Below, piece by piece: positions 38,434 through 63,642 of a stretch of DNA of 64,000 nt. A program made the position numbers and the translations under genes. The notes under the pieces are model-generated. The model made no database searches. It was not told the origin of the DNA and saw only the letters and a program-made list of their open reading frames with translations. The stretch comes from Blautia sp. (GTDB taxonomy: Bacteria > Bacillota > Clostridia > Lachnospirales > Lachnospiraceae), in contig JAETNR010000002.1 of NCBI GenBank assembly GCA_021772055.1, positions 1-64,000 on the forward strand, in the 5' to 3' direction. How positions within the stretch are numbered: position 1 is the first letter of the stretch; each line of letters begins with the position of its first letter.

Positions 38434-38467
38434 TTTCTGCCACCTCAATCTATTTCATAACACATAT

Positions 38468-42932: not shown

Positions 42933-42966
42933 AAAAGCAGAGGTTCTCACATCCTCTGCTTTTTTT
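42933..42966. terminator. Shared bidirectional terminator between the carboxypeptidase gene and yfhO
   Basis: An 11-base stem AAAAGCAGAGG/CCTCTGCTTTT (42933-42943 with 42953-42963) with a nine-base loop and T-rich flanks on both strands. It overlaps the yfhO stop codon. Confidence 0.88.
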
Positions 42967-48810: not shown

Positions 48811-50013
48811 TTATCTGCGGAGATGTTTTTTCACCTTTGTCAAAAATCGGTTTTCTTTCCGTAACTTATTCTCAGGAAACTGCCTGCACATTCCCTCCAG
48901 AACCTTCTGATCCACAGGATAAACCAGCAGCCGGACGGTAAGCTCTCTTCCGTTCTCCGGAACCGGAATATCCGCAAGAAAAGGATCCGTCTTTGGAATA
49001 TAGGCCCAATGACCTGCCCTGCATCCGCCTTCCACTACTACATCCCTGAGGGAAAGGTTCTCCCCGTCAACAGACAGATGCGCAATGGAAACTGCACACG
49101 GGTTATCTCCGGGATCCAGGCGGATTCTTCTGCATCCTTTCGGAAGGGAAACCTTTACAGACACTTTCTTTTCTTTGATGGGATATCTTCTGGAATTCTC
49201 CTGGGTATATCCCTCCCCCAGGTCAAAAAACACCTGCAGTTCCTCTGCAGGAACGATCTGAAGGGGTGCATTTCCCGGAGTCATATCCCGGTACATTTCC
49301 CGCATAGGTACATGCCCAGCTGTAAGATAATCCTGAAAATTCAGTTCCATCTGAAGAAAAGTCTCTGTAAGAGCCTCCGTGATTCCATAATCCCTGTAAA
49401 AATCTACGTCACACAAAGGTTTTCTGGCACTATAGGGATCCTGACAGTACCGGATGATCCGGTAAAGCACAAATTCGCAGGGAATGGGGAAATCAAAAGT
49501 CCATTCATAATCCAGAATGATGGGCTTCTCTGCAAGCACCAGATTGCTGCATACCATGTCAATATCCGTGATCCGGCCGCAGGTAAATGTTCCCTCAGGT
49601 TCCAGATCTCCGAAAACCTCCCGGAAGCGGTCTGTCATCACAAAAGGCTCCCCCTGATACATTTCCTTTACTTTATCCAGATATTCCCGCAGCATCCCCG
49701 CTGCCTTTTCCACTTCTCCCCGGACAGACAGCTCGTCCAGCACAGTCTCCAGAGTCTGCCCGCTTACATATTCCAGATACAGGCTTTCCCCCTCAAGCGT
49801 TCCTTTATTAAAAGAAAAAAAGCGTTCTCCGTACATCTCGTTCAGCTTTTCATACCAAAGCCCGATCTGCTCAACATACTGTTTTCCCTCAGGAGTGAGG
49901 GCTGTCTTTTTCACATAGCGGCTCTTGTCCGCCTCTTCCATAATATCCGTGCGGATAGCAAACCGGCGGCTGCGCTCATTGGAATATTTGGTAAAAATCA
50001 AATCCGCCATCAT
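48811..50013 (-). CDS. Kinase-fold protein paired with the methyltransferase
   Basis: A 400-residue protein with a protein-kinase/APH-like fold in the first about 240 residues: a likely ATP-binding Lys in SRYVKKTAL, hinge LYLEYVSGQTLETVL, catalytic loop DIDMVCSNLVL (Asp and Asn) and metal Asp in IILDYEWTF. Residues about 250-400 form a beta-rich domain opening FDLGEGYTQENS. Its start overlaps the stop of the methyltransferase gene (ATGA), so they are coupled. In E. coli O8/O9a the fused WbdD methyltransferase-kinase caps the growing chain; this pair has the same order as separate genes. A sugar or glycan kinase role is inferred and untested. Confidence 0.6.
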   Translation of the reverse strand: MMADLIFTKYSNERSRRFAIRTDIMEEADKSRYVKKTALTPEGKQYVEQIGLWYEKLNEMYGERFFSFNKGTLEGESLYLEYVSGQTLETVLDELSVRGEVEKAAGMLREYLDKVKEMYQGEPFVMTDRFREVFGDLEPEGTFTCGRITDIDMVCSNLVLAEKPIILDYEWTFDFPIPCEFVLYRIIRYCQDPYSARKPLCDVDFYRDYGITEALTETFLQMELNFQDYLTAGHVPMREMYRDMTPGNAPLQIVPAEELQVFFDLGEGYTQENSRRYPIKEKKVSVKVSLPKGCRRIRLDPGDNPCAVSIAHLSVDGENLSLRDVVVEGGCRAGHWAYIPKTDPFLADIPVPENGRELTVRLLVYPVDQKVLEGMCRQFPENKLRKENRFLTKVKKHLRR

Positions 50014-50936
50014 TCTCCCTCCTTTTCCACAAGTACCAGAAATGAGTTGGAAAATTCCGGAAACAGTCCGCCCTCCGCCAGCGTATCATAAACCTTTGCC
50101 TCGTCAAACAACTGGATGCGCGCCCTGTCAAAATTGCTGAAATTCCCTTTCAGCTCGCCTTTTTTCGGCAGATACCTGTCTGAATAAATGGTCAGAGGGA
50201 ATTTATAATCCGGAAACGGATAATAAAACTGAGTCTTAAAATTTCCGGCCTTCCGGATCAGATTTCCAAGCTCTGTCCTGGAAAAAGTCTTTACCCCTTT
50301 GGTATCCGGATATCCCATCAGCCCTTCAAAATACCTGCCTGCATGATCCTCCGTACATCCCGCCCAGTATTTCATGCCCAGCCGATTCTCAATGGCAATG
50401 ACGATCTTTCCTCCCGGAGCAAGGTGACGGGAAATACACCGGAGCATTTCCACATAGGGTTCCTTTGTCCCCATATATCCTTCCGAATATTCAAACACCC
50501 CGATAAGGGTGATATAGTCAAACTTTTCTTCCAGGTTTTTCTCAATGTCCCGGAAATTTCCTACCATAATCTTTACATTATCATAGTCACGGTTTCTGTA
50601 TGCATTGATGGTGCTTCGCATCCTGGACAGATCAATACAGGTGACCTCTCCTGCCTTGCGTGCAAGGGCACCGGTAATGGCGCCGCAGCCGGAGCCCACC
50701 TCCAGAACCCGATCCTTTTTTTCTATTGGAAGCCATTCCAGAATATTCTGGCGGATATGGGAAAAATGGTACAGAACAGGCCAGCTTTTCCGCTCACTGA
50801 TCACCTGATTCAGTTCTTCTTCCCTGTAGTTTTTGGCAATTTCCAAAAGCTCCTCTTCCACAGGACCATCACTATATAAATCTTTCCCGGAATAGTATTC
50901 CAGATCCAGTACAATATTTCCAATCTTTTCCTGCAT
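50010..50936 (-). CDS. Class I SAM-dependent methyltransferase, possible chain-capping enzyme
   Basis: A 308-residue protein with the SAM-binding loop VLEVGSGCGAITGALA, acidic motif II in TCIDLSRMR and post-motif TLIGVFEYSEGY. After the Rossmann core comes IAIENRLGMKYWAGC, a segment I associate with methyltransferases in glycan clusters. It precedes and overlaps the kinase-fold gene and follows the ABC exporter ATPase by 28 bases. The arrangement suggests methylation of the polymer end before export, as in WbdD systems; an alternative is O-methylation of an internal sugar. Confidence 0.8.
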   Translation of the reverse strand: MQEKIGNIVLDLEYYSGKDLYSDGPVEEELLEIAKNYREEELNQVISERKSWPVLYHFSHIRQNILEWLPIEKKDRVLEVGSGCGAITGALARKAGEVTCIDLSRMRSTINAYRNRDYDNVKIMVGNFRDIEKNLEEKFDYITLIGVFEYSEGYMGTKEPYVEMLRCISRHLAPGGKIVIAIENRLGMKYWAGCTEDHAGRYFEGLMGYPDTKGVKTFSRTELGNLIRKAGNFKTQFYYPFPDYKFPLTIYSDRYLPKKGELKGNFSNFDRARIQLFDEAKVYDTLAEGGLFPEFSNSFLVLVEKEGE

Positions 50937-50964: not shown

Positions 50965-52215
50965 TTACTGCGTTACAGATACCCGGGAGTTCATATCATA
51001 AAATCCTACGGTATTTTTTGTGGAAATCACGGTAATGCTGCATGCGTCATACAAACGGTGGAACACGGTAAAATCCCCGTCCCGGTATCCTGTACAGCCA
51101 AAGGAAAGAAGGTATTCTCCACCCTGGAGGTTCATCTTCTGTGTAAAGGTCACAATGCATTCCTTTCCTGCTTCCGGATGCTTCACAGACACCTTTTCAT
51201 ACATGGTATTGGTTCCGGTGATTTCCGTTCCCTGAACATTTTTAAAGGTAAAAGCCATGATCGGCTCCTGAATGTCTTCATGAAAATGTACCTTCATCTT
51301 TATTTGGAAGGTGGTTCCCTTCTCGATGGTATTGCTCTGGCGGCCGTTTTCGTCCAGCACGGTGTAGTCGATGATCTCCGCCTGTTTTTCTCCATATTCC
51401 AGGGTATCCGGATTTACCTGGAAGCCTTCCCGCCAGTTTTCCTGCACAGTCTCCTGGCTTGTCTGCTTTACAGGATCCTGATTCACCAGAAGCTGCTTGT
51501 ACATATCCACCATGGCCTTGGGCGTTCCTTCGTCCAGCTTGACCCCCTTATTCAGAAGAATCACCCTGTCGCAGTACTTTGCAATGCTGCCAAGGTCGTG
51601 GCTGACAAACAGAATGGTTTTTCCCTGTTCCTTAAATTCTTCAAATTTATGATAGCATTTTGCCTGAAAAAATACATCGCCCACAGAAAGAGCCTCATCC
51701 ACAATGAGGATCTCCGGGTCAATGTTAATGGCCACTGCAAAAGCCAGGCGCACAAACATTCCGCTGGAATACATCTTTACAGGCTGGTGGATAAAATCAC
51801 CGATATCCGCAAACTCCAGAATGGCATCCAGGCGCTGGTCGATCTCCTTTTCCGAAAAACCGATCATGGTTCCGTTCAGGTAGACGTTTTCCAGTCCTGT
51901 ATATTCCATATTAAAGCCTGCTCCCAGCTCCAGAAGGGCGGAAATTCTGCCGTCTACTTTCACATCCCCCTCTGTTTTTGAGAGAACACCTGTAATAATC
52001 TTCAAAATGGTGGATTTTCCGGAGCCATTGGTTCCGATGATTCCCACACATTCCCCTTCCTCTATATCAAAGCTTACATTCCGCAATGCATAATGCTCTT
52101 TGTATCGCTTCTTTCTGGAAAGCCCCAGGGATTCCTTTAAGCGGTCCGACGGCCTGTCGTAAAGCTTATACATTTTGGAAAGATTCTGTATCTGAATTAC
52201 TTTCTTTTTTTCCAC
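50965..52215 (-). CDS. wzt: Polysaccharide ABC exporter ATPase with Wzt-type C-terminal sugar-binding domain
   Basis: A protein of about 416 residues. The N-terminal ATPase (about 1-245) has Walker A GTNGSGKSTILK, a signature region with MYSSGMFVRLAFA, Walker B ILIVDEALSVGD and switch FVSHDLGSIAKYC. The C-terminal about 145 residues are a beta-sandwich with GEKQAEIIDYTVLDENG and GTEITGTNTMY, matching the Wzt carbohydrate-binding domain that recognises the capped chain end in E. coli O8/O9a. I set the start at GTG 52215 with a GAGAGG site; the upstream open frame overlaps the permease gene and lacks one. It pairs with the permease at 52239. Confidence 0.9.
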   Translation of the reverse strand: MEKKKVIQIQNLSKMYKLYDRPSDRLKESLGLSRKKRYKEHYALRNVSFDIEEGECVGIIGTNGSGKSTILKIITGVLSKTEGDVKVDGRISALLELGAGFNMEYTGLENVYLNGTMIGFSEKEIDQRLDAILEFADIGDFIHQPVKMYSSGMFVRLAFAVAINIDPEILIVDEALSVGDVFFQAKCYHKFEEFKEQGKTILFVSHDLGSIAKYCDRVILLNKGVKLDEGTPKAMVDMYKQLLVNQDPVKQTSQETVQENWREGFQVNPDTLEYGEKQAEIIDYTVLDENGRQSNTIEKGTTFQIKMKVHFHEDIQEPIMAFTFKNVQGTEITGTNTMYEKVSVKHPEAGKECIVTFTQKMNLQGGEYLLSFGCTGYRDGDFTVFHRLYDACSITVISTKNTVGFYDMNSRVSVTQ

Positions 52216-52238
52216 GTAAGAACCTCTCGATCTCAAGA

Positions 52239-53054
52239 CTACAGGATATCTGCAAAATGTACCCGCAGACGCTGGAATACCCAGTTTCCAAACACAAAGC
52301 ACAAAACAGTAAATATCCAGAAATAGACAGTCCACAGCGGACGTTCCCAAAACCAGTTTTTCATAATAAATGCATCCCTGTAGCCTGACACAATATAATA
52401 GACAGGATTGAGCTGCAGCACCTTCTGAAGGACCTCATGCCCCTTCAGCGAAGTTTCCGCGATCCACATAATCGGAGTCAGCCAGATTCCCACCTGAAGC
52501 CCGATATTGATGATCTGTGTCAGATCCCGGAAAAACACCACCACTGCAGAGGTTGCATAACAGAGCCCCAGCACCAGCAAAAACAGGCAGGCGCTGTAGT
52601 AGATCAGCTGCAGATAATACAGATCCGGAAAACGTCCGTAGCACACATACAAAATCATGGTAAACACGATAAAAAAGATGTGTACGAACAATGCGGAAAG
52701 CATCTTTACCACAGGCAGCACACTGATGTTAAAAACCACCTTTTTTACAAGATAATCGTATTGGATCAGTGCATTGGTACCTCCTGTCAGTGCCTCCTGG
52801 AAAAAAAACCAGGGGATAATTCCCGCAACCAAATAAAGCACAAAAGGCACACCTAAGTCCCCTGTTCCTGACCGAAAGCCCACGGAAAATACAAACCAGT
52901 ACACCAGAACCGTTACTACCGGCTGGATGAAAGCCCATATGGTTCCAAGATAGGAGCCTGCGTATTTTGTTTTAAAGTCATTTTTTGCAAGCTTGGCTAC
53001 CAGGCGCCGGTTCCTGTACACATCCAAAGGCAGCGAAAAAATTGTTTTCAGCAT
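52239..53054 (-). CDS. wzm: Polysaccharide ABC exporter permease (Wzm/RgpC/TagG type)
   Basis: A 271-residue ABC-2 membrane protein with about six helices. The opening KNDFKTKYAGSYLGTIWAFIQP and the C-terminal LNPVYYIVSGYRD are family signatures. It moves lipid-linked polymer across the membrane with the ATPase that follows 23 bases later. The lack of Wzx or Wzy genes in the window supports an ABC-dependent route in which the chain is completed inside before export. Confidence 0.93.
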   Translation of the reverse strand: MLKTIFSLPLDVYRNRRLVAKLAKNDFKTKYAGSYLGTIWAFIQPVVTVLVYWFVFSVGFRSGTGDLGVPFVLYLVAGIIPWFFFQEALTGGTNALIQYDYLVKKVVFNISVLPVVKMLSALFVHIFFIVFTMILYVCYGRFPDLYYLQLIYYSACLFLLVLGLCYATSAVVVFFRDLTQIINIGLQVGIWLTPIMWIAETSLKGHEVLQKVLQLNPVYYIVSGYRDAFIMKNWFWERPLWTVYFWIFTVLCFVFGNWVFQRLRVHFADIL

Positions 53055-53063
53055 TCCCTTCTC

Positions 53064-53618
53064 CTATCTGCGAAATTCCCGGAAGCTTCCCCATTTCTTG
53101 TCTTTCTCAGAGAAGATCAGTTCCATTCCCTCCGGAATCGGCCATTTTACTCCAATGTCAGGATCACTCCACAAAAGTCCGCCTTCATCTCCCGGATGAT
53201 AAAAATCCGAACACTTATAAGTAAATTCCGCATTTTCGGAAAGTACTAAAAATCCGTGGGCAAAGCCCTGGGGAATAAAAAACTGTTTCTTATTTTCTGC
53301 GGAAAGGATCACACCAAACCATTTTCCATAGGTCTTGGAGCCTTCCCGGAGATCCACAGCTATATCAAATACTTCTCCGCTTACCACCCGTACCAGCTTT
53401 GCCTGGGGATACTGAATCTGAAAGTGCAGGCCGCGCAGCACGCCGTAGCGTGAGCTGGACTGATTATCCTGTACAAACTGTACATCGATTCCCGCTTCTT
53501 TAAAATCATTATAATTATAGGTTTCCATGAAATAGCCGCGGGCATCCCCGAAAACGGAAGGCTCAATCACTTTCAGTCCCTCGATTTCCCCGCAGTCCGT
53601 CACTTTGATTTTTCCCAT
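53064..53618 (-). CDS. rfbC: dTDP-4-dehydrorhamnose 3,5-epimerase RfbC
   Basis: A 184-residue cupin-fold epimerase of the dTDP-L-rhamnose pathway. The catalytic His lies in GVLRGLHFQIQYPQAKLVRV, the pathway's typical motif, and YKCSDFYHPGDEGGLLWSDP marks the active-site face. It is followed by wzm after nine bases and preceded by rfbA, 25 bases away, within one operon. Confidence 0.96.
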   Translation of the reverse strand: MGKIKVTDCGEIEGLKVIEPSVFGDARGYFMETYNYNDFKEAGIDVQFVQDNQSSSRYGVLRGLHFQIQYPQAKLVRVVSGEVFDIAVDLREGSKTYGKWFGVILSAENKKQFFIPQGFAHGFLVLSENAEFTYKCSDFYHPGDEGGLLWSDPDIGVKWPIPEGMELIFSEKDKKWGSFREFRR

Positions 53619-53643: not shown

Positions 53644-54522
53644 TTATAAGCCTTCCGATACCTCTATGAGATATTTTCCGTAGGCAGTTTTTAAAAGGGG
53701 CTGTGCCAGTTCCACAAGCTGGTCTTTTGTAATAAAGCCCCGTTTATATGCGATTTCTTCAATGCAGGAAATATAAAGTCCCTGGCGTTTCTGGAAAGCT
53801 GCCACAAAATCCGCGGCATCCAGAAGGGAATCATGATTTCCCGTATCCAGCCATGCAAAGCCTCTTCCAAGGGTTTCCACCTTTAAGGTTCCCCGCCTTA
53901 AATATTCATTATTCACACTGGTGATCTCAATCTCCCCTCTTGCGGAGGGCTTCACATTCTTCGCGATCTCCACCACATCATTGTCATAAAAATATAAGCC
54001 CGGTACTGCATAATTGGATCTGGGATGCTCCGGCTTCTCCTCAATGGAAAGGGCATTGCCCTCTTCATCAAATTCCACGACCCCGTATTCCCTGGGATCC
54101 CTTACATAGTAGCCGAAGATCGTGGCGCCCTTCTGCTCTTCTGTACGGCGGTATACATTCTGAAGCACTCTGGAAAAGCTCTGCCCGTAAAAGATATTAT
54201 CTCCCAGAACCAGAGCCACTTCGTCCTTTCCGATAAAATCCGCACCGATGATAAAAGCATCCGCCAGTCCTCTGGGTTCCTCCTGAACCGCATAGGCGAA
54301 TCGCATTCCCAGCTGGCTGCCGTCTCCCAAAAGTTCCTGAAACACAGGAAGATCCCTGGGGGTGGAAATGATCAAAACTTCCCGGATTCCGGAAAGCATC
54401 AGGGTTGACAGTGGATAATAAATCATAGGTTTATCATATACCGGCATGATCTGTTTGGAGATTGCCTTTGTCAATGGATACAGTCTGGTTCCGGAACCTC
54501 CGGCAAGAATAATTCCCTTCAT
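53644..54522 (-). CDS. rfbA: Glucose-1-phosphate thymidylyltransferase RfbA
   Basis: A 292-residue nucleotidyltransferase forming dTDP-glucose, the first committed step to dTDP-rhamnose and dTDP-amino sugars. The signature [20 protein letters not shown] and [12 protein letters not shown] are present. Normal length. It lies between a carboxypeptidase gene and rfbC in the operon. Confidence 0.97.
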
Positions 54523-54547: not shown

Positions 54548-55885
54548 TTATTTTCTTTTTTTCAAAATTAAAGCAATAATCAGAATCATTAATAAAACGA
54601 CCATGCCAGCCATGACCGCCAGAAGATTTCTGGCAAGGCTGGAAATTCCCTTAGTTTCCCGGGATGTTCGGTTTTCCGAAACCTTCTCCCCGGAAATTTC
54701 CTCCTTGCCGGGCTCTTCCCCGGACGTCTCTGCCCGGTAAAGGGGTTCGCTGTTCGCATCTCCCACTTCCTCCAGAGGAGGCTCCGTCTCCTTTGGCGCT
54801 TCTGTCTCCTTGGGCTCTTCCGGCACAGGCGCGCTTCCCATATAGCGGCCCTGGTAACTGTATTTCCGGACAGTTTTTCCCTCTTCCTGCACATCCTCTG
54901 TCTCCAGGCTTTCCAGGGGTACACTCTTCGGCAAAGTTACCGAGCCCTGTCCTTCTATCTTCACGGTTTCAAACTGGTCGTATGCGTAATCAAACAATGC
55001 TGCCGTATCAAAGCAGGACTGGGGCAGGCCCACAGAGCGCAGAACCACCACAATGTAGGTTCTTCCCTCCTTTTCTGCAAAGGAAACCAGGGTTGACCCC
55101 GCATCATTGGTATTCCCGGTCTTTCCCCCCAGACAGCCTTCATAATAATACTCCTTCAATTCAGGAAAAACCATCGGATGATGGCTTGAAAATCCTCTCT
55201 TCTCCGGATTCTTGTTGGTAGGGGGCATGGTATGGCTTAATGTTTTCATAATCCCAAGAGCAGTCTCATTTCGAAGCACTGCCTGGAAAATAAGGGCCAT
55301 ATCGTGTGCAGTGGTGTACTGCCCTTCCCCCGGAAGGCCGTTGGCATTGATAAATCTGGTATTCTCACACCCCAGCTGTCCGGCACGCTCATTCATCATC
55401 TCAATGAACTGCGCTTCCGTTCCTCCGATAAATTCCGCAATCTGTGTGGAAACCTCGTTGGCAGAAGCAAGGATCATGGCATAGAGGCATTCCTCCAGGC
55501 TCACCACTTCTCCCGGAACCATGCCGATATTGGCAGAATCCGGCGACACATCCCGAAGACAGGTCTCCGTAAACGTAACCTCATCCTGAAGGTCTCCGTT
55601 CTCCACAGCCAAAAGAAGGGTCATCAGCTTCGTGATACTGGCAGGATAACGGAGAGCATCCGCACCCTTTTCATACAGGATCACACCGGAATCCCCATCC
55701 ATGACAATGCCTGTATCCGAAGTGATCTCAGGGCCTTTCGGCCAGTTTTCGATACTGTTTGTAGAAATCTCGTATACCTCCCTCAAATTTACTGTCCTCT
55801 CTCCGGCCAGTACAGGGGAAGCCAAGAGTACCGCTACAGCCATTCCTGTAGCAAGCACATTCCAAAAAGGCTTTCTTTTTTTCAC
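54548..55885 (-). CDS. D-alanyl-D-alanine carboxypeptidase (DacF-like)
   Basis: A 445-residue exported enzyme with a signal peptide (about 1-27), SITK (SxxK), SANE (SxN) and KTG (GGKTGNTND), all intact. A Glu/Pro-rich stretch (about 350-415) precedes a C-terminal membrane helix and a basic tail. It trims the terminal D-Ala of stem peptides. Unusually, it lies inside the glycopolymer operon between rffA and rfbA, suggesting co-regulation of peptidoglycan trimming with polymer attachment. It is a paralogue of the gene at 41604. Confidence 0.93.
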
Positions 55886-55906: not shown

Positions 55907-57040
55907 TTAAAACTCCGGAAAGGAATCCATCGCATCCACAATTTTCTTCACATCTTCCATATCCAGATTATAATACATGGGCAGGCGAAGCAGGCGTTCA
56001 CTTTCTTTTGTGGTATAAACATCCTCCCCGCAAAATCTTCCGAACCGCATTCCTGCGGGAGAGCTGTGAAGAGGAACATAGTGGAATACGCTCTGAATCC
56101 CCTGTTCTCTCAGATATGCGATGAGACGGTCTCTTGTTTTCAGGTCGCGCACCTTCAGATAGTACATGTGGGCATTATGGCTTGCTCCCTCCGGAACAAA
56201 AGGCTGTTCAATTTTTCCTTCCTCTCTCAGGTGCCTGAGATTTTTATGATAATATTCATAGATTTCCATCCGTTTTTCCATAATACGCCGGCTGGCTTCC
56301 AGCTGCGCATACAAATATGCGGCGTTCAATTCACTGGGCAGATAGGAAGAGCCGTAATTCATCCAACGGTATTTATCCACCTGTCCACGAAAAAATTTAC
56401 TTCTGTCCGTTCCTTTTTCTCTCAGGATTTCTGCCCGTTCCAGATACTCCTCCTTCTGAAAAACAAGGGCGCCCCCTTCCCCCATGGTATAATTTTTCGT
56501 TTCATGGAAGCTGTAGCAGCCAAAATCTCCGATGGTTCCAAGAGCCTTTCCCTTATAGGATGCATCCACACCCTGGGCTGCATCCTCCACTACCTTCAGA
56601 TGATATTTCCGGGCAATGGCCATAATCGTATCCATCTCGCAGGCTGTTCCTGCATAATGCACGGGCACGATCACCCGTGTTTTCGGCGTAATGGCAGCCT
56701 CGATCAGTTTTTCATCCATATTCATGGTATCCGGCCGGATGTCCACAAATACGATCCTGGCCCCCCGAAGGACAAAAGCATCTGCCGTAGACACAAACGT
56801 ATAGGAGGGCATGATCACCTCTTCTCCGGGCTGGATATCCGAAAGATAGGCAGCCATCTCCAGTGCATGAGTACAGGAGGTAGTGAGAAGTACATGGTTT
56901 ACGTCAAAATGCTCCTGCATCCATAAAGAACACCTGCGGGTATATTCTCCGTCTCCGCACAGCTTGCCATTATCGATTGCTTTTTTAATATACTCCAGTT
57001 CCCTCCCCACAAAGGCAGGTTTATTAAAATCTATCATCAT
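55907..57040 (-). CDS. rffA: dTDP-4-amino-4,6-dideoxy-hexose aminotransferase (RffA/WecE-like)
   Basis: A 377-residue DegT/DnrJ/EryC1-type PLP enzyme. The PLP Lys is in SFHETKNYTMGEGGAL and the fold marks are TSCTHALEMAAYL and VIMPSYTFVSTADAF. WecE/RffA converts dTDP-4-keto-6-deoxyglucose, the RfbB product, to dTDP-4-amino-4,6-dideoxygalactose. So RfbB would feed two branches here: L-rhamnose and a 4-amino sugar. Stereochemistry of the product cannot be read from sequence. It is in the operon, 21 bases before the carboxypeptidase gene. Confidence 0.9.
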   Translation of the reverse strand: MMIDFNKPAFVGRELEYIKKAIDNGKLCGDGEYTRRCSLWMQEHFDVNHVLLTTSCTHALEMAAYLSDIQPGEEVIMPSYTFVSTADAFVLRGARIVFVDIRPDTMNMDEKLIEAAITPKTRVIVPVHYAGTACEMDTIMAIARKYHLKVVEDAAQGVDASYKGKALGTIGDFGCYSFHETKNYTMGEGGALVFQKEEYLERAEILREKGTDRSKFFRGQVDKYRWMNYGSSYLPSELNAAYLYAQLEASRRIMEKRMEIYEYYHKNLRHLREEGKIEQPFVPEGASHNAHMYYLKVRDLKTRDRLIAYLREQGIQSVFHYVPLHSSPAGMRFGRFCGEDVYTTKESERLLRLPMYYNLDMEDVKKIVDAMDSFPEF

Positions 57041-57118
57041 AAAATCCTCTTCTATTCCGGGAATTTTTTTCTTCTGTTATTGTCGCACAATCCCCCGGCA
57101 AATTCAACGCCTATTTTA

Positions 57119-57454
57119 TCAGAGCATGTAAAGAAACACTCCTGTAATGATCATTAAATTTCCTATAATCTGGCCTCTGGAAAATTTTTCCTTCAAAATT
57201 GCCCAGGAAAGCAGCATCACAAACACATAGCTGAAAGTATCGATCACTGCCCCGTATTTCATGTCCACTTTCGTGTAGGCATACATGTTCAGAAATAATA
57301 CGGAAAAAGAAATGCCGTATGCAGTGATCACTCTCCAGTTCAAATATTCCAGAATCTGATTTTTATATGTTTGATTGGCGCTCTGTTTCAGCAGCACCTG
57401 CGATATGGCTGAAAAAAAGGTGGCACCAAACATCAATAATAAATATGGAAGCAT
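57119..57454 (-). CDS. SMR/EamA-like small membrane transporter, subunit 1
   Basis: A protein of about 111 residues with four predicted helices and SMR-like features (opening LLLMFGATFFSAISQVLLKQSA). I place the start at ATG 57454, with TAAGGA seven bases upstream and only four bases after the preceding stop; an earlier GTG at 57481 is weaker. Paired SMR proteins such as ArnE/ArnF flip undecaprenyl-phosphate-linked amino sugars in Gram-negative bacteria. Next to an ArnC-like glycosyltransferase, a flippase role is likely here, but drug transport is not excluded. Confidence 0.7.
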   Translation of the reverse strand: MLPYLLLMFGATFFSAISQVLLKQSANQTYKNQILEYLNWRVITAYGISFSVLFLNMYAYTKVDMKYGAVIDTFSYVFVMLLSWAILKEKFSRGQIIGNLMIITGVFLYML

Positions 57455-57458
57455 TCTT

Positions 57459-57824
57459 CTATTCCTTACTTTCTTTTCCACTGACGGAAACTATCACAAC
57501 ACCTGCAAACACTACCAAAAGCCCCGCCACATTTTTTGCGGTCAGGCTTTCGCCAAAAATCACAACCGCCCACAGCTGACTCCAGAACAAATAAACGCTA
57601 CGGTTGGCATAGCCGATATGCAGGTCAAATTTCCTGATGATCTTCTGCCAGCAAATTGCATAAAGGAAACAGTCCGCCAACATCAGGAATGCAAAAAAAT
57701 ACAGTTTCGGATTTCTGATCCCCCCCTCTGTAAGCTGCATGGATGCCATTTTGGAAAACACACTGGTAAACGAAAACAGCAGCACACAGAAATGAAGGAA
57801 GATATAATTCTTTACTCTCTCCAT
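57459..57824 (-). CDS. SMR/EamA-like small membrane transporter, subunit 2
   Basis: A 121-residue protein with four predicted helices and closing helix NVAGLLVVFAGVVIVSVSG. It overlaps the end of the ATP-grasp gene by 13 bases and is followed after four bases by the second small transporter, so both are made together, consistent with an antiparallel heterodimer. Its sequence differs from its partner, as with ArnE and ArnF. A role in flipping a lipid-linked amino sugar is inferred from context. Confidence 0.7.
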   Translation of the reverse strand: MERVKNYIFLHFCVLLFSFTSVFSKMASMQLTEGGIRNPKLYFFAFLMLADCFLYAICWQKIIRKFDLHIGYANRSVYLFWSQLWAVVIFGESLTAKNVAGLLVVFAGVVIVSVSGKESKE

Positions 57825-59059
57825 AATTCCTCTAAAGATTTATTGTTAATATAAATACACCGATTTACCTGCTTCAGGATCTCGTCAAATTCCAGCTCTG
57901 ACGCTGCCCTGGAAATCACATGGCCGATTCTCGTGGTCCCGTTCTGCATTTTTTCCACCGGATGTCCCAAAGGATAATCCAGAACCACCTCAATCCCTCT
58001 CTTTCGAATTTCCTCAAGCCTTTTTTCATCGAGAAAAGTGATTTTTCCATCCAAAGGGCTCATGAGCAGTTTGGCCATACAGGGAATCTTCTCCCTTTTC
58101 TCCGGAAAATCCCAGGGAATGCCCAGAGCGCTTTTGATGATCGTTTCGTAAAAATCAAATCCATAATGAAGGGAAATCAGTTCCGGGATACAGGTTGCAC
58201 CAACCCTTCCTCCGATTTCAATCACGGAAACTTTCGTTCCATGAAGCATAACATCTGCATTAAATGCACATTGATCCATTCCAGCCGCATTTACTGCAAG
58301 CTGCATCTGTCCGGCAATTTCCGCAAGCTGCTCCTCTGAGGCCTGGAGTGGAAATCCGTGTCCTGCCGGAATGGTTACGTTTTCCCCATGATATAGAAAC
58401 TTCTCATGAGGTGCCAGAAATACTACTTTCCCGTTTTGGACCATTCCATCCACGCCGATCTCTTTTCCGGTGAGCAGTTCTTCTACCAGAACATAATCCT
58501 TCCGGGAACCTGCTTTTGCGTATGCAAAGGCAGACCTCACTCCCTGTGCATCCTTTACAATGGTGATTCCCCTGCTGCCGGAGCTGTCCACACGCTTCAC
58601 CACAGCCGGAAACCCGATCTCCCCGGCTGCTTCCAGTGCTTCCTTGGGCGTAAATACCTTTCGATATCCGGCTGCAGACACATGTCCTTTCAGAAAAGCA
58701 TCTTTCATGCGGCCTTTTTCCGTAACACAGGCAGCGGATGAGCTTGACAGACCGGAAAGTCCCATTTGTTCACATACATATCCCAGGGAAAACACGGCCA
58801 CATCGGTTCCTGCAGTACAGATTCCGCTGATATTCTCTTTCTCTGCTGCTTCCAGAACCGCCTCTTTATTTCTGGTATCAATATGGTAAACCCGGTCAGC
58901 CCACAGAAAGCCCGGATAATTGCCCGGAATACTCACCACAATGGTATAAAGCCCCATCCTTCTGGCAGCTTTGATCAGCGGCACCTGGTAAACTCCTGCA
59001 CCGAGGATCATGATTTTCTTTTGATTCCCCTGTCTGTCAAACCTTATTTCTTCCTGCAT
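57812..59059 (-). CDS. ATP-grasp ligase of the carbamoyl-phosphate-synthase-like type
   Basis: A 415-residue ATP-grasp protein. A Rossmann-like pre-domain (KKIMILGAGVYQVPLIKAA) is followed by the central ATP-binding region (PAVVKRVDSSGSRGITIV) and the metal-binding strand VIEIGGRVGATCIPEL (Glu, then Arg). Relatives include L-amino-acid ligases and biotin-carboxylase-like ligases that make amide bonds through acyl phosphates. In this operon it is a candidate for acylating the 4-amino sugar with an amino acid or other acid. The start at 59059 overlaps the glycosyltransferase end by 23 bases; a later ATG at 59011 is possible. Confidence 0.8.
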   Translation of the reverse strand: MQEEIRFDRQGNQKKIMILGAGVYQVPLIKAARRMGLYTIVVSIPGNYPGFLWADRVYHIDTRNKEAVLEAAEKENISGICTAGTDVAVFSLGYVCEQMGLSGLSSSSAACVTEKGRMKDAFLKGHVSAAGYRKVFTPKEALEAAGEIGFPAVVKRVDSSGSRGITIVKDAQGVRSAFAYAKAGSRKDYVLVEELLTGKEIGVDGMVQNGKVVFLAPHEKFLYHGENVTIPAGHGFPLQASEEQLAEIAGQMQLAVNAAGMDQCAFNADVMLHGTKVSVIEIGGRVGATCIPELISLHYGFDFYETIIKSALGIPWDFPEKREKIPCMAKLLMSPLDGKITFLDEKRLEEIRKRGIEVVLDYPLGHPVEKMQNGTTRIGHVISRAASELEFDEILKQVNRCIYINNKSLEELWRE

Positions 59060-60020
59060 CTCCCTCTTCTTTCTGCAGTGGAACCTGTTTCCTGTCTGCT
59101 TTTATATTTACCGTCTCTCTTACAATATACTGAGGCGTATCATTTAAAATGAGGATGATTTTGCCCAGATATTCCCCAATAATTCCCAGAACCATCAATA
59201 CCAATGAAAAAAACAGCACAGTCACACATAGAGAGGAGGACCATCCTACCGGAACATTGGGATGAAGCAGCTTATTGATCACTACAAGCAATGCGATCAC
59301 CACTCCTGCCACACCGGCAAATACCCCAAGAAAAAAAGAAATCCGAAGGGGAATCACAGAAAAATTCCAGTAGGCAAGCCATAAATTCAGAAGTTTCCGG
59401 AAAGTATAATTGGAGCTTCCCTGCTCTCTCCTGAAATGTTCCACTTCCACATTTCCGATATTATGTGTCACACGATAAAAAACGCCGTCAATATAAGGGT
59501 TGTAACTTTTGTACTTTACAACCTCCTCTTTTACAGCGTTTGTGATAATCCAGAAATTACTGGAACATATTTCTTTTGGCCTGTTCAGCATGATCCTGGA
59601 TGTTACCTCATTGAGTCTGCTGGAAAAATTCTTAAGCCTGGAATTTTTTCTGTCCGGATAAACACCGTAAACCAGGTCATAACCCTCCTCCATCTTATGG
59701 ATCAGCTTAAAAATCTGGGAAGGGTGTGTCTGCATATCATCGTCCATTCCCAATACATAATCCCCCTCAGCATAGGCAAGCGCTGCCATCAGAGCATTAT
59801 GCTGTCCGAAATTCCGCATGAGGTTCACGCCCCGGACACAGGAATACCGGGAGGCAAGCTTTTGGATTTCCTCATAGGTTCCATCTTTGGAACCGTCATT
59901 TACAAGCACAAAGTTACAGTCGTATCCATCATTCTTATCAAACTCCGCCATTACCATTTCCACCACTTTTCCTATAGTAGCCTGGGAATAATAGCATGGT
60001 ATCACAATCGAAACTAACAT
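59037..60020 (-). CDS. ArnC/GtrB-like polyprenyl-phosphate glycosyltransferase
   Basis: A 327-residue enzyme with a GT-A domain (VSIVIPCYYSQATI; MRNFGQHNALMAALAYA; metal motif GMDDDMQTHPSQ) and two C-terminal membrane helices (about 230-250 and 262-287). This is the layout of enzymes that load a sugar onto undecaprenyl phosphate, as ArnC, GtrB and CsbB do. In this operon the donor may be the dTDP-4-amino sugar from RffA. It is 14 bases after the PLP-enzyme gene. A GtcA-type flippase is absent, and the SMR pair may take that part. Confidence 0.87.
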   Translation of the reverse strand: MLVSIVIPCYYSQATIGKVVEMVMAEFDKNDGYDCNFVLVNDGSKDGTYEEIQKLASRYSCVRGVNLMRNFGQHNALMAALAYAEGDYVLGMDDDMQTHPSQIFKLIHKMEEGYDLVYGVYPDRKNSRLKNFSSRLNEVTSRIMLNRPKEICSSNFWIITNAVKEEVVKYKSYNPYIDGVFYRVTHNIGNVEVEHFRREQGSSNYTFRKLLNLWLAYWNFSVIPLRISFFLGVFAGVAGVVIALLVVINKLLHPNVPVGWSSSLCVTVLFFSLVLMVLGIIGEYLGKIILILNDTPQYIVRETVNIKADRKQVPLQKEEGDAGRNKV

Positions 60021-60034
60021 GTTCTCCTCCGGTT

Positions 60035-61012
60035 CTATGCCTTTTCCGTTCCTTCCTGTTCTTTCTGTTCTGCCATAAAATCATAAAATAAGGGAGTTCC
60101 GCCTGTATGGAGAAACAGGATCCTGCTGTTCTCTATTTTTTTCTCCCGGATATACTCCTTCATTCCCCAGAATGCTTTTGCAGTGTAAACAGGATCCATG
60201 GGGATTCCGTTCTTAAGATATACTTCTTTCAGACAGTCTGTGATGCGTTTGTCGTACTTCCCGTACCCTTCCTGCCTGTACTGGTCTAAAAGGCAGATTT
60301 CCTGCGCAAAATTCTCCGACAATGGCTGCTGCTGTTTTTCAAAATATGCCCGTACACTGTCTGCAATGACCCGGTATGCCCGTTCCGTCTCACGGGAAGA
60401 AATCATCACTCCCATAACTTTTTTGTGATCTCCTGCCAGCAAATGTCCGCAGATCAGTCCGGCCTGGGTCGCCCCGGTTCCTGACGGGCAGAATACATAA
60501 TCAAATTCCCATCCCGCCTGCCTTTCAAAGGCAGTAATCTCTTTGTACGCATCTGCATAGGCACCAGCCAGTGTCCCTTCATTTCCGGTTCCAAGCCTGC
60601 TTCCGTAAATATAATAGGGCCTTTTGCCCCTTTTTCGGATCTGTTCCATTACTGAATCCACAGTTTGGGCGATCTCATTTTTTGTACAGTGGACAATGGG
60701 GGTTCCTGTCCATTGGATCAGCTTTTCATTATTGGTTTCCTCTGAATTCTCTCCCTCTTCGTGAGAGCAAATCATCGTACATTCCATGCTTCTATGATAA
60801 CACATAGCAGAAAGAACACGGCAGAGATTGGAATGGACGCTTCCATAAATAATCATGCTGTCGCAGTCTTTCTCCTGCATATCCTGAAAAAGTGCTTCTG
60901 CAATCCGGACTTTATTTCCTCCCATGGAAAAAGGAAGCAGATCCTCCCTTTTGATATAAAGAGAATTGCCGTCCTTTTCCTCCCAGCATAACTGCTGTAT
61001 CAATGTATTCAT
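60035..61012 (-). CDS. PLP enzyme of the ACC deaminase/D-cysteine desulfhydrase family
   Basis: A protein of about 325 residues of fold-type II. The PLP Lys is in MGGNKVRIAEALF, with IIYGSVHSNLCRVLSAMCY and CPSGTGATQAGLICG forming the phosphate and substrate loops. Characterised relatives deaminate ACC or cleave D-cysteine and other D-amino acids, giving 2-keto acids. It could supply or reshape an acid or amino acid for the ATP-grasp step, but that is a guess. I start it at ATG 61012 with GGAAGAGG upstream; the longer frame to 61093 overlaps rfbB. Confidence 0.82.
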   Translation of the reverse strand: MNTLIQQLCWEEKDGNSLYIKREDLLPFSMGGNKVRIAEALFQDMQEKDCDSMIIYGSVHSNLCRVLSAMCYHRSMECTMICSHEEGENSEETNNEKLIQWTGTPIVHCTKNEIAQTVDSVMEQIRKRGKRPYYIYGSRLGTGNEGTLAGAYADAYKEITAFERQAGWEFDYVFCPSGTGATQAGLICGHLLAGDHKKVMGVMISSRETERAYRVIADSVRAYFEKQQQPLSENFAQEICLLDQYRQEGYGKYDKRITDCLKEVYLKNGIPMDPVYTAKAFWGMKEYIREKKIENSRILFLHTGGTPLFYDFMAEQKEQEGTEKA

Positions 61013-61049
61013 GTTTCCTCTTCCTGCCGGATACGGCCAAAATGCCATG

Positions 61050-62132
61050 TTATCTGTTTTGGTACATATCTTCGTAGTATTTCTGATAGTCACCGCTGGT
61101 TACATTCTTCATCCAGTCCTCATGTTCAAAGAACCACTGGATCGTCAGACGGATGCCATCCTCAAAACAGGTTTCCGGATACCAGCCCACTTCTGCTTTG
61201 ATTTTATCCGGTGCAATGGCATAACGGCGGTCATGACCTTTACGGTCCTCCACATAAGTGATGAGATTTTCGCTTACCAGTTTCTTCCTGGGATCCTCAT
61301 CCGGCAGCATCTCCTGCAGAGTGTCCAGAATGATATGGATGATCTGAATATTCTGCTTCTCATTATGCCCGCCGATATTATAGGTTTCAAACAAACGACC
61401 CTGCTCCTGAACCATATCGATTCCTTTTGCATGATCCATTACATACAGCCAGTCACGGACATTTTTTCCATCACCGTATACGGGAAGCGTTTTCCCCTGG
61501 AGAGCGTTGTTGATGATCAGTGGGATCAGCTTCTCAGGGAACTGGTATGGTCCATAGTTGTTGCTGCAGTTGGTAATGTTTGCAGGGAATTTATAAGTAT
61601 CCATATATGCTTTTACAAGCATATCAGAAGATGCCTTGCTTGCGGAGTAGGGGCTGTGGGGTGCATAGGGCGTTGTCTCGTAAAAATATTCCCCTTCCTC
61701 CTCCAGGGAACCATATACCTCATCTGTGGAAACATGAAGGAATTTCTTTCCTTCTTTGAAGGTTCCGTCCGGAAGCTCCCATGCGGCTTTTGCAGCATTC
61801 AGCATGACAAGTGTTCCAAGAACATTGGTTTTTACAAATACATCTGGATTTTTTATACTGCGGTCAACGTGGCTTTCTGCTGCAAAATGTACAACGCGGT
61901 CAATGTCATTTTCTTCAAAAATCTTCATGATGGCTTCACTGTCGCAGATATCCGCTTTCACGAAGGTATAGTTTTCTCTGTTCTCAATATCCTTCAAGTT
62001 TTCCAGGTTTCCGGCATAGGTCAGCTTGTCCACATTGATGATGCGGATCTCATCCCCGTATTTCTGAAACATGTAGTGAATATAATTGGAACCAATAAAG
62101 CCTGCTCCTCCTGTTACTAAATAAGTTCTCAT
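61050..62132 (-). CDS. rfbB: dTDP-glucose 4,6-dehydratase RfbB
   Basis: A protein of about 360 residues of the extended SDR family. It has TGGAGFIGSNYIHYM, STDEVYGSLEEEGEYF, YSASKASSD (YxxxK) and NNYGPYQFPEKLIP, as in RfbB/RmlB. It makes dTDP-4-keto-6-deoxyglucose, the branch point for rhamnose and for the RffA amino sugar. The ATG at 62132 is 32 bases after the amidase stop; the AAAGGAG site is about 12 bases away, rather far. A longer frame reaching 62195 overlaps the amidase gene and is less likely. Confidence 0.96.
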   Translation of the reverse strand: MRTYLVTGGAGFIGSNYIHYMFQKYGDEIRIINVDKLTYAGNLENLKDIENRENYTFVKADICDSEAIMKIFEENDIDRVVHFAAESHVDRSIKNPDVFVKTNVLGTLVMLNAAKAAWELPDGTFKEGKKFLHVSTDEVYGSLEEEGEYFYETTPYAPHSPYSASKASSDMLVKAYMDTYKFPANITNCSNNYGPYQFPEKLIPLIINNALQGKTLPVYGDGKNVRDWLYVMDHAKGIDMVQEQGRLFETYNIGGHNEKQNIQIIHIILDTLQEMLPDEDPRKKLVSENLITYVEDRKGHDRRYAIAPDKIKAEVGWYPETCFEDGIRLTIQWFFEHEDWMKNVTSGDYQKYYEDMYQNR

Positions 62133-62163
62133 AATGTCTGTGTACTCCTTTATTCTTTTTCCA

Positions 62164-63642
62164 TTATTTGCGGTTGGTGCATACACCTTTTGCATTGAAT
62201 TTGTATACCTTGCCGTTTTCTTTCAGCGTGGTGCTTTTCAGCATCCGTTTTGTCTTTTTATCGAAATAATAATACTTTCCGGAATATTTCACCCATCCTG
62301 ACCTGGCCTTTCCGTTGGAGGCAAAGCAGTAAGTTCCTGATTTCAGTTCCTTGAAACCTTTATTATAGCGGATTCCGTCAGGATCAATGTAATAGACTGC
62401 ACTGTCCGTTCCTTTTATTATTTTGTTCTTTACTAAGTATGCTTCTTTTTGATCAAAATAATAATAATTTCTGCCGATTTTTACAAATCCGGTCAGTGCA
62501 TATCCATTAGAGCCAATGTAGTAGCGCTTTTTCTGAAATGTAGACCAGCCTTCCAGTCTCTTACCGTCATCCCCAAAAAGATACATTTTTCCTGTACCGG
62601 AAACAAGCTTTGCATTTTTGTACAGGTAACCCAGCTTACTGTTAAAGTAATACCAGTTGCCCTCGTCTCTCATCCAGCCGAGCCAGGCTGCGCCATCCTC
62701 CTGAAAATAATAGGTTTTCCCCTGGAAGTCCTGCCAGCCATACTGGCGTTTTCCTTCCTCGTTCACATAGTAAGTTTCGTCCTTAATGGTCAAAAGCTGG
62801 TTGACTGCTTTTTTGTCATTCTTATAATAGTAAAAGTCTTCGCCCTCTTTCAGCCAGCCGTTTTTTTTCGCCGGATCTACCGGCTCTTCTTTTGCAGGAA
62901 GCTGCCTGATATAGCGGACGATGGCATTTGCATCTGCTTTTGCGATCTTTTTCAGCTTTGCTTCGGAACTTAAGAATTTCGTGGCATCAGAGTAATTGCT
63001 GACAAATGCATGTTCAATAATCACTCCGGGAAGATTGCTTTCTACGCTTAATGCTACAATACTGTAGTAATCACGCTGTTTTCCGTTGGGATATTTGCTT
63101 CCATCCGTACTCATGCGGTATTCCATACCTCCGGTGGAACTATAGCGTTTAGAAATTCCCAGTTTTCCAAGTTCCGACATGACATAGCTTCCAAACAATT
63201 TCTCTTTTGCAGCCAGATTCGCACGATAGGTTCCTTTGGAAATCAGCACGGAGGCGCCTTTTGCCCTGCCGGTTTCTTCATCATTGATGTGCTGGCTTAC
63301 CAGAAGGTCTGCCTTAGCCTTTTGGGCTGTTTTTACCCTGTCCTTAAGGCTTGGACATTGAGTCCTGGTTCTGGTTAAAACCACTTTAATATTGGTGTAT
63401 TTTGCCAGTTCCTGCTTGGTATAATTGGAGATCTTCCAGTTGATCTCGGATTCCACATACTTTTTGCCATTATGCACTTCTACTGCACCGGAATCAATTC
63501 CTCCGTGGCCCGGGTCTAAAGCTACCACAAACTGTCCTGTATTCACTGTAGCTGCGGATATGACCTCCGGTACTCCTCCCAAAATGGTGACTGCACTGAT
63601 TGCTGCGCTAAGAAGTACGGCACGTATTCTTTTCTTTTTCAT
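62164..63642 (-). CDS. Secreted N-acetylmuramoyl-L-alanine amidase with wall-binding repeats
   Basis: A 492-residue exported amidase. A signal peptide (about 1-30) precedes an Amidase_3 zinc domain (about 38-245) with VVALDPGHGGIDSGAVE (His ligand), VSQHINDE and the Glu in VIIEHAFVSN. Residues about 260-492 are wall-binding repeats (YYFDQKEAYLVKNK, YYFDKKTKRMLK and others). It cuts between MurNAc and the stem peptide. It is the first gene clearly belonging to the wall operon. Confidence 0.93.
   Translation of the reverse strand: MKKKRIRAVLLSAAISAVTILGGVPEVISAATVNTGQFVVALDPGHGGIDSGAVEVHNGKKYVESEINWKISNYTKQELAKYTNIKVVLTRTRTQCPSLKDRVKTAQKAKADLLVSQHINDEETGRAKGASVLISKGTYRANLAAKEKLFGSYVMSELGKLGISKRYSSTGGMEYRMSTDGSKYPNGKQRDYYSIVALSVESNLPGVIIEHAFVSNYSDATKFLSSEAKLKKIAKADANAIVRYIRQLPAKEEPVDPAKKNGWLKEGEDFYYYKNDKKAVNQLLTIKDETYYVNEEGKRQYGWQDFQGKTYYFQEDGAAWLGWMRDEGNWYYFNSKLGYLYKNAKLVSGTGKMYLFGDDGKRLEGWSTFQKKRYYIGSNGYALTGFVKIGRNYYYFDQKEAYLVKNKIIKGTDSAVYYIDPDGIRYNKGFKELKSGTYCFASNGKARSGWVKYSGKYYYFDKKTKRMLKSTTLKENGKVYKFNAKGVCTNRK

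Follow-up and report, generated by a model that had tools for sequence, protein, structure and literature searches.

The Arn system builds uridine diphosphate-linked 4-amino-4-deoxy-L-arabinose (UDP-Ara4N), masks its amine with a formyl group, loads the sugar onto undecaprenyl phosphate with a family 2 glycosyltransferase (GT2), turns it over with two unlike small multidrug resistance (SMR) proteins, ArnE and ArnF, which act as a lipid flippase pair, and transfers it with a GT-C glycosyltransferase. For enterobacterial common antigen, WecD acetylates the amino sugar and WecF adds it in the cytoplasm. Three-component systems, as the portions of the sources drawn on here describe them, decorate exported polymers (PMC11754754, PMC11127046, PMC5836110): CsbB-GtcA-YfhO of Bacillus subtilis and its kin comprise a GtrB-like loader, a flippase and a YfhO-family transferase (PMC5836110, PMC7389260), and in the SccN-SccM/SccP-SccQ system of Streptococcus mutans, GT-C enzymes add side sugars from polyprenyl-phosphate donors to exported polyrhamnose, which LCP proteins attach to the wall (PMC11754754). 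The Ruminococcus gnavus glucorhamnans, in the portion of that report drawn on here, mark Lachnospiraceae rhamnans as immune-active surface polymers (PMC12413058). Here we analyse 64,000 nucleotides of Blautia sp. (Lachnospiraceae; assembly GCA_021772055.1, contig JAETNR010000002.1, positions 1 to 64,000; 'the window'), where, judging from the genes, Blautia appears to carry an exchangeable gene set that couples an amino acid to a rare amino sugar destined for a wall rhamnan.

The gene set comprises a fold-type-II pyridoxal 5'-phosphate (PLP) enzyme, a GtrB-like GT2, an ATP-grasp ligase, two small membrane proteins (SMR1 and SMR2) and the aminotransferase WecE; all six genes, noted in a preliminary description of the same DNA, are present, open and on the minus strand where it had placed them. 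They belong to a co-directional run of 17 minus-strand genes, from 62135 down to 42965, in which neighbours overlap or lie no more than 78 bases apart; the order is rmlB, PLP enzyme, GtrB-like GT2, ATP-grasp, SMR1, SMR2, wecE, D,D-carboxypeptidase, rmlA, rmlC, wzm, wzt, methyltransferase, a protein at 48811-50013, tandem GT2, rmlD and yfhO. Since the genes run in one direction so tightly and the next gene 3' of yfhO (41604-42869) is convergent, the layout agrees with the earlier view that yfhO ends the operon. We favour, with modest confidence, the reading that N-aminoacyl-Fuc4N is loaded onto polyprenyl phosphate, turned over and placed on the rhamnan by YfhO. RmlA, RmlB and WecE would yield deoxythymidine diphosphate (dTDP)-4-amino-4,6-dideoxygalactose (dTDP-Fuc4N); the PLP enzyme would supply an amino acid, in the D configuration or otherwise unusual; the ATP-grasp enzyme would couple the carboxyl of that acid to the 4-amino group of the sugar; the GtrB-like enzyme would load the aminoacylated sugar onto polyprenyl phosphate; the SMR pair would turn the lipid-linked sugar to the outer leaflet; and YfhO would attach it, as a side group, to rhamnan that Wzm-Wzt has exported. 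The parts of this scheme differ in strength: loading by GtrB is very likely, Fuc4N as the sugar almost equally so, flipping by the SMR pair a little less, and amide formation on Fuc4N by the ATP-grasp enzyme, YfhO as transferase and the rhamnan as acceptor are each probable at the next step down, followed by the PLP enzyme as supplier of an unusual amino acid rather than as an enzyme acting on the product, which is somewhat probable.

The identity of the sugar is suggested by the aminotransferase (wecE/rffA, 55907-57040), which scores 630.6 bits against the dTDP-Fuc4N transaminase model NF008687 (cut-off 375) and 620.6 bits against TIGR02379 (cut-off 434.85), and has the solved relatives 4piw and 6blg. 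The preliminary description had taken ArnB as the parallel for this enzyme, which was wrong: by score it is a WecE (dTDP-Fuc4N) enzyme, the ArnB model NF008658 standing at 196.8 versus 631. Co-occurrence was followed in a family sample of 299 genomes (298 genus codes, searched with several queries) and a genus sample of 64 genomes; gene calls in relatives were made mostly by similarity to the window proteins, many genomes are incomplete and kinship among them inflates P values. WecE accompanies every close ATP-grasp relative (at least 170 bits) in the family, 26 genomes in all, and is present in 71 of the 273 others (P = 1.5e-14, Fisher's test, which treats genera as independent); in the genus it is found in 33 of 33 ATP-grasp genomes versus 18 of 31 without. 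Counting any ATP-grasp match, WecE occurs in 54 of 78 family genomes, and in 43 of the 221 without a match at E 1e-20; another collection held it in 8 of 9 records, four of which overlap the genus set. Among 36 ATP-grasp loci with a tblastn score of at least 170, to which some genomes contribute two, wecE lies within 10 kb in 16, and it may sit elsewhere in the genome, away from the ATP-grasp gene. The window's own genome has a second WecE (L080, L112; G000:C109, 20000-53900), with 582 bits to the window WecE, in a separate glycan cluster that also holds a second SMR pair, another GtrB (238 bits), a distant ATP-grasp (116 bits) and a GGYFE-like protein.

The ATP-grasp ligase itself (57812-59059) matches PF13535 at 42.4 bits and LAL_C2 at 21.9, the latter below cut-off, and falls below every NCBIfam cut-off. 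Its nearest solved chain is 4dim (187.5 bits), which carries a generic name only; BacD and BL00235 follow at 47.5 and 33.8 bits. K155, S162-R163-G164, E193, D269, E281 and R285 are invariant in nine aligned sequences. A phage-borne cassette was considered and rejected, as none of the 53 viral stretches that matched two short patterns encoded a relative; 12 plasmid records held distant ATP-grasps, with at most 33.2% identity among the matches listed (10 of 12).

The PLP enzyme (60035-61018; PF00291, 103.1 bits), whose likely start, as placed earlier, is an ATG near 61012, belongs to the D-cysteine desulfhydrase/CuyA/1-aminocyclopropane-1-carboxylate (ACC) deaminase superfamily and exceeds the cut-off of no named family: the nearest model is CuyA (167.9 bits, cut-off 450), TIGR01275 reaches 158.7 versus 289.4 and the PRK03910 models at most 118.3 versus 429. 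A true D-cysteine desulfhydrase or CuyA was rejected on these scores, which are far under the cut-offs. ACC deaminases bear a Glu following the active-site Tyr; that identity was likewise rejected (121.9 versus 392 bits), with Thr, Val or Ser and no Glu at this place in 20 aligned sequences. The PLP lysine, a Ser-Asn pair and HTGG are kept in 20 of these 20 sequences, Gly-Tyr-Gly in nearly all and Tyr-Thr in most, while His, Arg or other residues replace the Gln of D-cysteine desulfhydrase and the Gly-rich loop is longer; we presume that the residues serve as in relatives, in which the Ser-Asn pair binds the carboxylate.

Strong relatives of the PLP enzyme (scoring 224 bits or more, or truncated at the end of a contig) occur in 17 of 299 family and 28 of 64 genus genomes, G504 being counted as lacking the gene, which a contig end cuts there to 84 residues. 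Three more came from wider samples, of 196 genomes of the order and 299 of the phylum, for 46 different genomes in total; the enzyme is rare outside the family, with relatives in 2 of 298 other phylum-sample genomes at E 1e-40, both from other families. In all 46 genomes an ATP-grasp is fused to the PLP enzyme, adjacent, one gene off or, in G117, the fifth gene downstream, and in 26 the two form a single protein. These fusions, recognised through phmmer and shared open frames, comprise 7 in family genomes and 20 in genus genomes (14 read, 6 from a shared open frame), with one in both sets. A single clade (support 0.996) unites 20 fused PLP domains, but 14 fused ATP-grasp domains split into two separate lineages, indicating that the partner joined twice or was exchanged. 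Eight PLP loci (G003, G007, G117, G241, G298, G447, G515 and G550) carry a PRK12767-like, PylC-like or ATPgrasp_Ter-like ATP-grasp instead; in all of these but G447, which has none within 20 kb, the stretch also contains another DegT-like gene, the G550 copy being weak (56 bits). A phosphoglycosyltransferase also lies in the stretch in G003 and G241. In two genomes of other families (G562, G622) the PLP gene adjoins an ATP-grasp gene with a DegT-like gene near, joined in G622 by rmlA and rmlB. Counting WecE genome-wide, 45 of the 46 genomes have a known sugar aminotransferase, in one of them a weak one. As a separate observation, the PLP genes of L163 (G550), L162 (G515) and L143 (G447) adjoin PRK12767-like ATP-grasp genes in clusters apart from any rhamnan operon.

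The loader (59037-60020) is a GtrB/PgfS/ArnC-like GT2 (PF00535, 97.1 bits) with a DDD motif and, as the preliminary description had it, two hydrophobic, transmembrane-like segments at its C terminus. The nearest NCBIfam models, PgfS (165.9 bits, cut-off 500) and ArnC (NF007986, 131.3 versus 529), are far off. It is the sole GtrB-like gene in the 64 kb, the next GT2 matches scoring 24.1 and 15.8 bits; a different GtrB as partner of the window YfhO was dropped, there being none other in the window. A GtrB gene lies within 2 kb of the ATP-grasp gene and on the same strand in 34 of the 36 loci (exceptions L042 and L067), and both SMR genes lie within 2 kb in 20, one on the opposite strand; tblastn adds GtrB in L046 and SMR1 in L037. 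With wecE near in 16, these counts make GtrB and ATP-grasp the core, accompanied by the SMR pair in about half.

An alternative course keeps the same donor pathway and places acylation after loading, or has the PLP enzyme act on the aminoacyl sugar instead of a free acid. That ATP-grasp and GtrB are neighbours in 34 loci and wecE is within 10 kb in 16 agrees with it, but we consider it unlikely: ArnA/ArnC and WecD/WecF mask the amine at the nucleotide-sugar stage, the Ser-Asn pair of the PLP enzyme would suit a free alpha-carboxylate, if its role is as we presume, and in L094 and L096 the ATP-grasp-PLP pair is accompanied by a phosphoglycosyltransferase, not GtrB.

The SMR genes stand next but one to the GT2 gene in the window. 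SMR1 (57459-57824) reaches 22.3 bits against EamA, below the Pfam cut-off of 28.2, and adjoins SMR2 in many relatives; SMR2 (57119-57481) reaches 44.3 bits. Both keep an early Lys and a late Glu in all 60 and 61 aligned sequences, respectively. By analogy with ArnE/ArnF, we infer a lipid flippase. Drug exporters are also found among SMR-type proteins, and the pair could be one of these, brought beside the other genes by chance; the preliminary description had counted a drug-exporting pair, combined with use of the RffA product as a main-chain sugar only, among the outcomes that would refute its own proposal. A drug exporter is very improbable: SMR2 aligns a Ser to Glu14 of EmrE (a weak match, E 0.079), no acidic residue occupies that place among the rows listed for its relatives (the best 45 of 61 at most) or for those of SMR1 (the best 45 of 60 at most, with the place counted from the conserved Lys), and the pair lies within 2 kb of the ATP-grasp gene in 20 of 36 loci.

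The candidate transferase is a YfhO-family membrane protein resembling GT-C enzymes (42965-45460; PF09586, 209.5 bits), whose nearest NCBIfam model, PgfM2, is matched at 80.2 bits versus a cut-off of 1500. Its clade is present in 16 of 299 family genomes, all 16 with WecE (P = 6e-9) and 11 with a close ATP-grasp. Within the genus, 25 of the 33 ATP-grasp genomes have it, versus 2 of the 31 others, and, among WecE carriers, 25 of 33 versus 1 of 18 (P = 1e-6). The two with YfhO and no ATP-grasp, G508 (77% complete, no WecE found) and G538, are fragmented genomes; the wecE contig of G538 shows the same GtrB type and an SMR pair before it ends. In L038 and L058 the cassette adjoins other Pfam-confirmed YfhO-family proteins, which suggests that a different GT-C enzyme may serve where the window-type YfhO is missing. 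The window's genome also encodes a second YfhO with a GtrB of its own (L114).

The side group might be destined for another acceptor, such as lipoteichoic acid, a protein or peptidoglycan, as in the CsbB-YfhO and Pgf systems. The nearest named relatives of both the GT2 and YfhO are Pgf enzymes, if far below cut-off, and YfhO of B. subtilis is, in the portion of the source drawn on here, required for lipoteichoic acid glycosylation (PMC5836110). We nevertheless find this destination quite improbable, since yfhO lies within the rhamnan operon and remains there, behind rmlD, in G501 and G503, whose cassettes are elsewhere in the genome.

Several observations weigh against the favoured reading of amide formation on Fuc4N followed by transfer by YfhO. 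What was observed consists of genes, families and their co-variation, from which we infer each reaction, the acceptor and the precedence of acylation over loading, and ATP-grasp enzymes also form bonds to non-sugar substrates. The 170-bit line was set after the scores were known, and among carriers of weaker ATP-grasp relatives WecE is present in 1 of 4 (140-170 bits), 20 of 30 (110-140) and 7 of 18 (70-110). In four genomes, G509, G530, G543 and G549, wecE lies in the rhamnan operon but the stretch read shows neither ATP-grasp nor GtrB, and no ATP-grasp is matched at E 1e-10; G530 is 92% complete and the others 66 to 81%. Window-type YfhO is lacking from 8 of the 33 ATP-grasp genomes of the genus, five of them under 90% complete; since G498, G506 and G532 are over 90% complete, gaps do not explain its absence there. 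On a Wzm+Wzt tree of 33 genomes, five independent supported pairs differ in ATP-grasp, and YfhO differs the same way in four, the opposite way in none and ties in one, which gives P = 0.125, a comparison that cannot reach 0.05 with fewer than six pairs.

Some of these points, notably the wecE-bearing rhamnan operons of G509, G530, G543 and G549 with no cassette in the stretch, would suit an arrangement in which GT2s build the WecE sugar into the main chain or the linkage in the cytoplasm, and the ATP-grasp, GtrB and YfhO handle another sugar. Five genomes (G093, G140, G152, G250 and G532) keep wecE among the rhamnan genes while the cassette is elsewhere, and in several genomes wecE is directly followed by a GT2 similar to the tandem GT2 of the window. 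We regard this arrangement as doubtful because WecE is present, adjacent or not, in every one of the family's 26 genomes with a close ATP-grasp, because weaker ATP-grasps in other genera lie beside wecE or one gene off (L099-L101, L103 and L083) and because clusters without WecE usually hold another sugar aminotransferase with the PLP/ATP-grasp pair.

The gene set, sought in other Lachnospiraceae, recurs as a module whose genes stay in company, so that the lack of linkage which the preliminary description had named as refuting did not appear, though wecE is within 10 kb in only those 16 of 36 loci. Of the preliminary interpretation, the pairings of ATP-grasp with WecE, with the PLP enzyme, with GtrB and with YfhO are supported by the comparison; its ArnB parallel is not. 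A survey of the genus (60 further stretches read, the window and L061; G537 and G539 were left out of typing as contig ends lie too near) revealed several forms of the gene set before wecE. Type A (window, G546 and G528) has PLP-GtrB-ATP-grasp-SMR1-SMR2 before wecE. Type B has a fused ATP-grasp-PLP protein and, in all except G510, adds another ATP-grasp, an SMR pair and GtrB; wecE is in the stretch in 17 (G263, G494, G497, G498, G499, G502, G506, G510, G514, G518, G521, G522, G524, G527, G541, G542 and G553), and contig ends hide parts in G496, G504 and G540. Type C has one or two ATP-grasps without the PLP enzyme, an SMR pair and GtrB (G492, G505, G526, G533 and G536); G548 has such a set before rmlC, with wecE elsewhere. 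Type D (G500, G507, G515, G516, G519, G520, G529, G534, G535 and G552) has another GtrB, a 320-residue protein with a GGYFE-like start, a 430-residue ATP-grasp and an SMR pair; G493, noted beside these, has wecE, an SMR pair and, 30 kb off, an ATP-grasp. Type E has neither GtrB nor ATP-grasp in the stretch and comprises the four genomes named above, G509 showing an SMR pair farther on in the same contig. G501, G503 and G532 carry the cassette at another site in the genome, and that of G531 has no wecE near. Window-type YfhO is absent from 10 of 10 type D and 4 of 4 type E genomes.

The 320-residue type D protein, encoded between GtrB and ATP-grasp (L173:7657-8619, L169:7505-8476), had no match in Pfam, NCBIfam or the PDB; its sequence looks like that of a small DegT-type (fold-type-I) PLP enzyme. 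The rhamnan genes of type D genomes are as close to those of the window as those of types B and C in G515, G519, G529 and G552, and clearly further in G500, G507, G516, G520 and G534. G519, G529 and G552 are interspersed with genomes of types A, B and C in the Wzm+Wzt tree. This suggests that cassettes have been exchanged between species on similar rhamnan operons, one chassis taking different sets. Two ATP-grasps stand in a row in most type B and some type C genomes, and two successive enzymes of this kind would allow two residues.

More broadly, and tentatively, the cassette may be one form of a general exchangeable aminoacyl-sugar module, in which the PLP enzyme would make a non-standard amino acid, a nucleotide 4-amino sugar would receive one or two residues from one ATP-grasp or two in a row, and GtrB, the SMR proteins and YfhO, as a matched set, would hang the product on the rhamnans of gut Lachnospiraceae, with serotype-like variation; species with two ATP-grasps would then build a short peptide on a sugar without a ribosome or a nonribosomal peptide synthetase. 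If the favoured reading is true, charged, species-specific side groups are predicted on these rhamnans, ATP-grasp and fold-type-II PLP enzymes gain a new use, and the exchangeable cassette offers a genetic handle on surface variation in gut commensals.

The remainder of the operon is a rhamnan gene set. It begins with rmlB, dTDP-glucose 4,6-dehydratase (61050-62135; TIGR01181, 482.4 bits, cut-off 365.1); rmlA (53644-54522) and rmlC (53064-53618) were named from gene order and sequence reading, and rmlD (45467-46327) from TIGR01214 (321.2 bits, cut-off 224.05). The exporter comprises wzm (52239-53054), an ATP-binding cassette (ABC) permease named from gene order with six transmembrane-like segments, and the ATPase gene wzt (50965-52218; ABC_tran 88.2 and Wzt_C 158.4 bits), which has a carbohydrate-binding C-terminal domain; the tandem GT2 (46338-48782; PF00535 in two stretches, 103.9 bits) is a probable rhamnosyltransferase. 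Downstream, on the same strand, follow a polyprenyl glycosylphosphotransferase (37030-38448), an LCP-type wall ligase (35584-37011), a 620-residue tandem GT2 and a 318-residue GT2. Given the rhamnan genes and the downstream LCP and glycosylphosphotransferase genes, we read the locus as one for wall rhamnan, headed by an additional module. A promoter scan gave an uninformative 33 sites versus 29.0 expected, and terminator-like sites numbered 43 versus 20.1.

Other features of the neighbourhood deserve mention. Between wzt and the tandem GT2 lie an S-adenosylmethionine-dependent methyltransferase (50010-50936; Methyltransf_12, 48.4 bits) and, behind it, a 400-residue protein (48811-50013), an arrangement (48811-50936) found in many relatives and similar in layout to chain-capping pairs, such as WbdD with Wzt. 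The 400-residue protein matched no NCBIfam or Pfam family, and its best match to solved structures had E 0.19; a kinase role was dropped for want of a family match or solved relative. A D-Ala-D-Ala carboxypeptidase gene (54548-55885; Peptidase_S11, PF00768, 158.4 bits) keeps its place between wecE and the rml genes in many relatives, and the convergent gene just behind the operon (41604-42869) is a second D,D-carboxypeptidase-like gene, named from reading alone. Directly upstream (62164-63642) is an N-acetylmuramoyl-L-alanine amidase with choline-binding-type repeats, and some relatives have a protein of comparable size at that position. The LCP-family protein ends in a long tail made up of near-identical repeats that are acidic and rich in Tyr and Gly.

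Set against described systems, the locus would work like three-component extracytoplasmic glycosylation, a GtrB-like GT2, a flippase gene and a GT-C partner all being present. By score it is neither an Arn nor a Pgf system, the ArnB, ArnC, PgfS and PgfM2 models all lying below cut-off. With Arn (ArnA-F, ArnT) it would share a masked amino sugar, GT2 loading, two unlike SMR proteins and GT-C transfer, but it would use dTDP-Fuc4N made via WecE, a proposed amino acid in place of formyl, and YfhO in place of ArnT. The making of dTDP-Fuc4N by WecE is common to the WecE-WecD-WecF route to enterobacterial common antigen, with the Blautia ATP-grasp occupying the place of the acetyltransferase. That enzyme has the fold of the ATP-grasp amino-acid ligases (BacD, L-amino acid ligases, Ddl and PylC), whereas its proposed amine acceptor is a nucleotide sugar. 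CsbB-GtcA-YfhO, in the portions of the sources drawn on here, has the same loader, flippase and transferase types, but there N-acetylglucosamine is placed on lipoteichoic acid, whereas the Blautia locus has an amino sugar pathway, an SMR pair, the ATP-grasp and PLP enzymes and a rhamnan operon. The side sugar of the S. mutans Scc system is glucose, its flippase is not known, and the portion of that source drawn on here mentions no acylation module (PMC11754754). Among the matches listed in a search of titles and abstract openings of the open-access literature, a scope with most subscription journals outside it, no such gene set was described. As far as we can tell, what is new here is an acylation module of ATP-grasp and PLP enzymes that is tied to a three-component system and varies between species.

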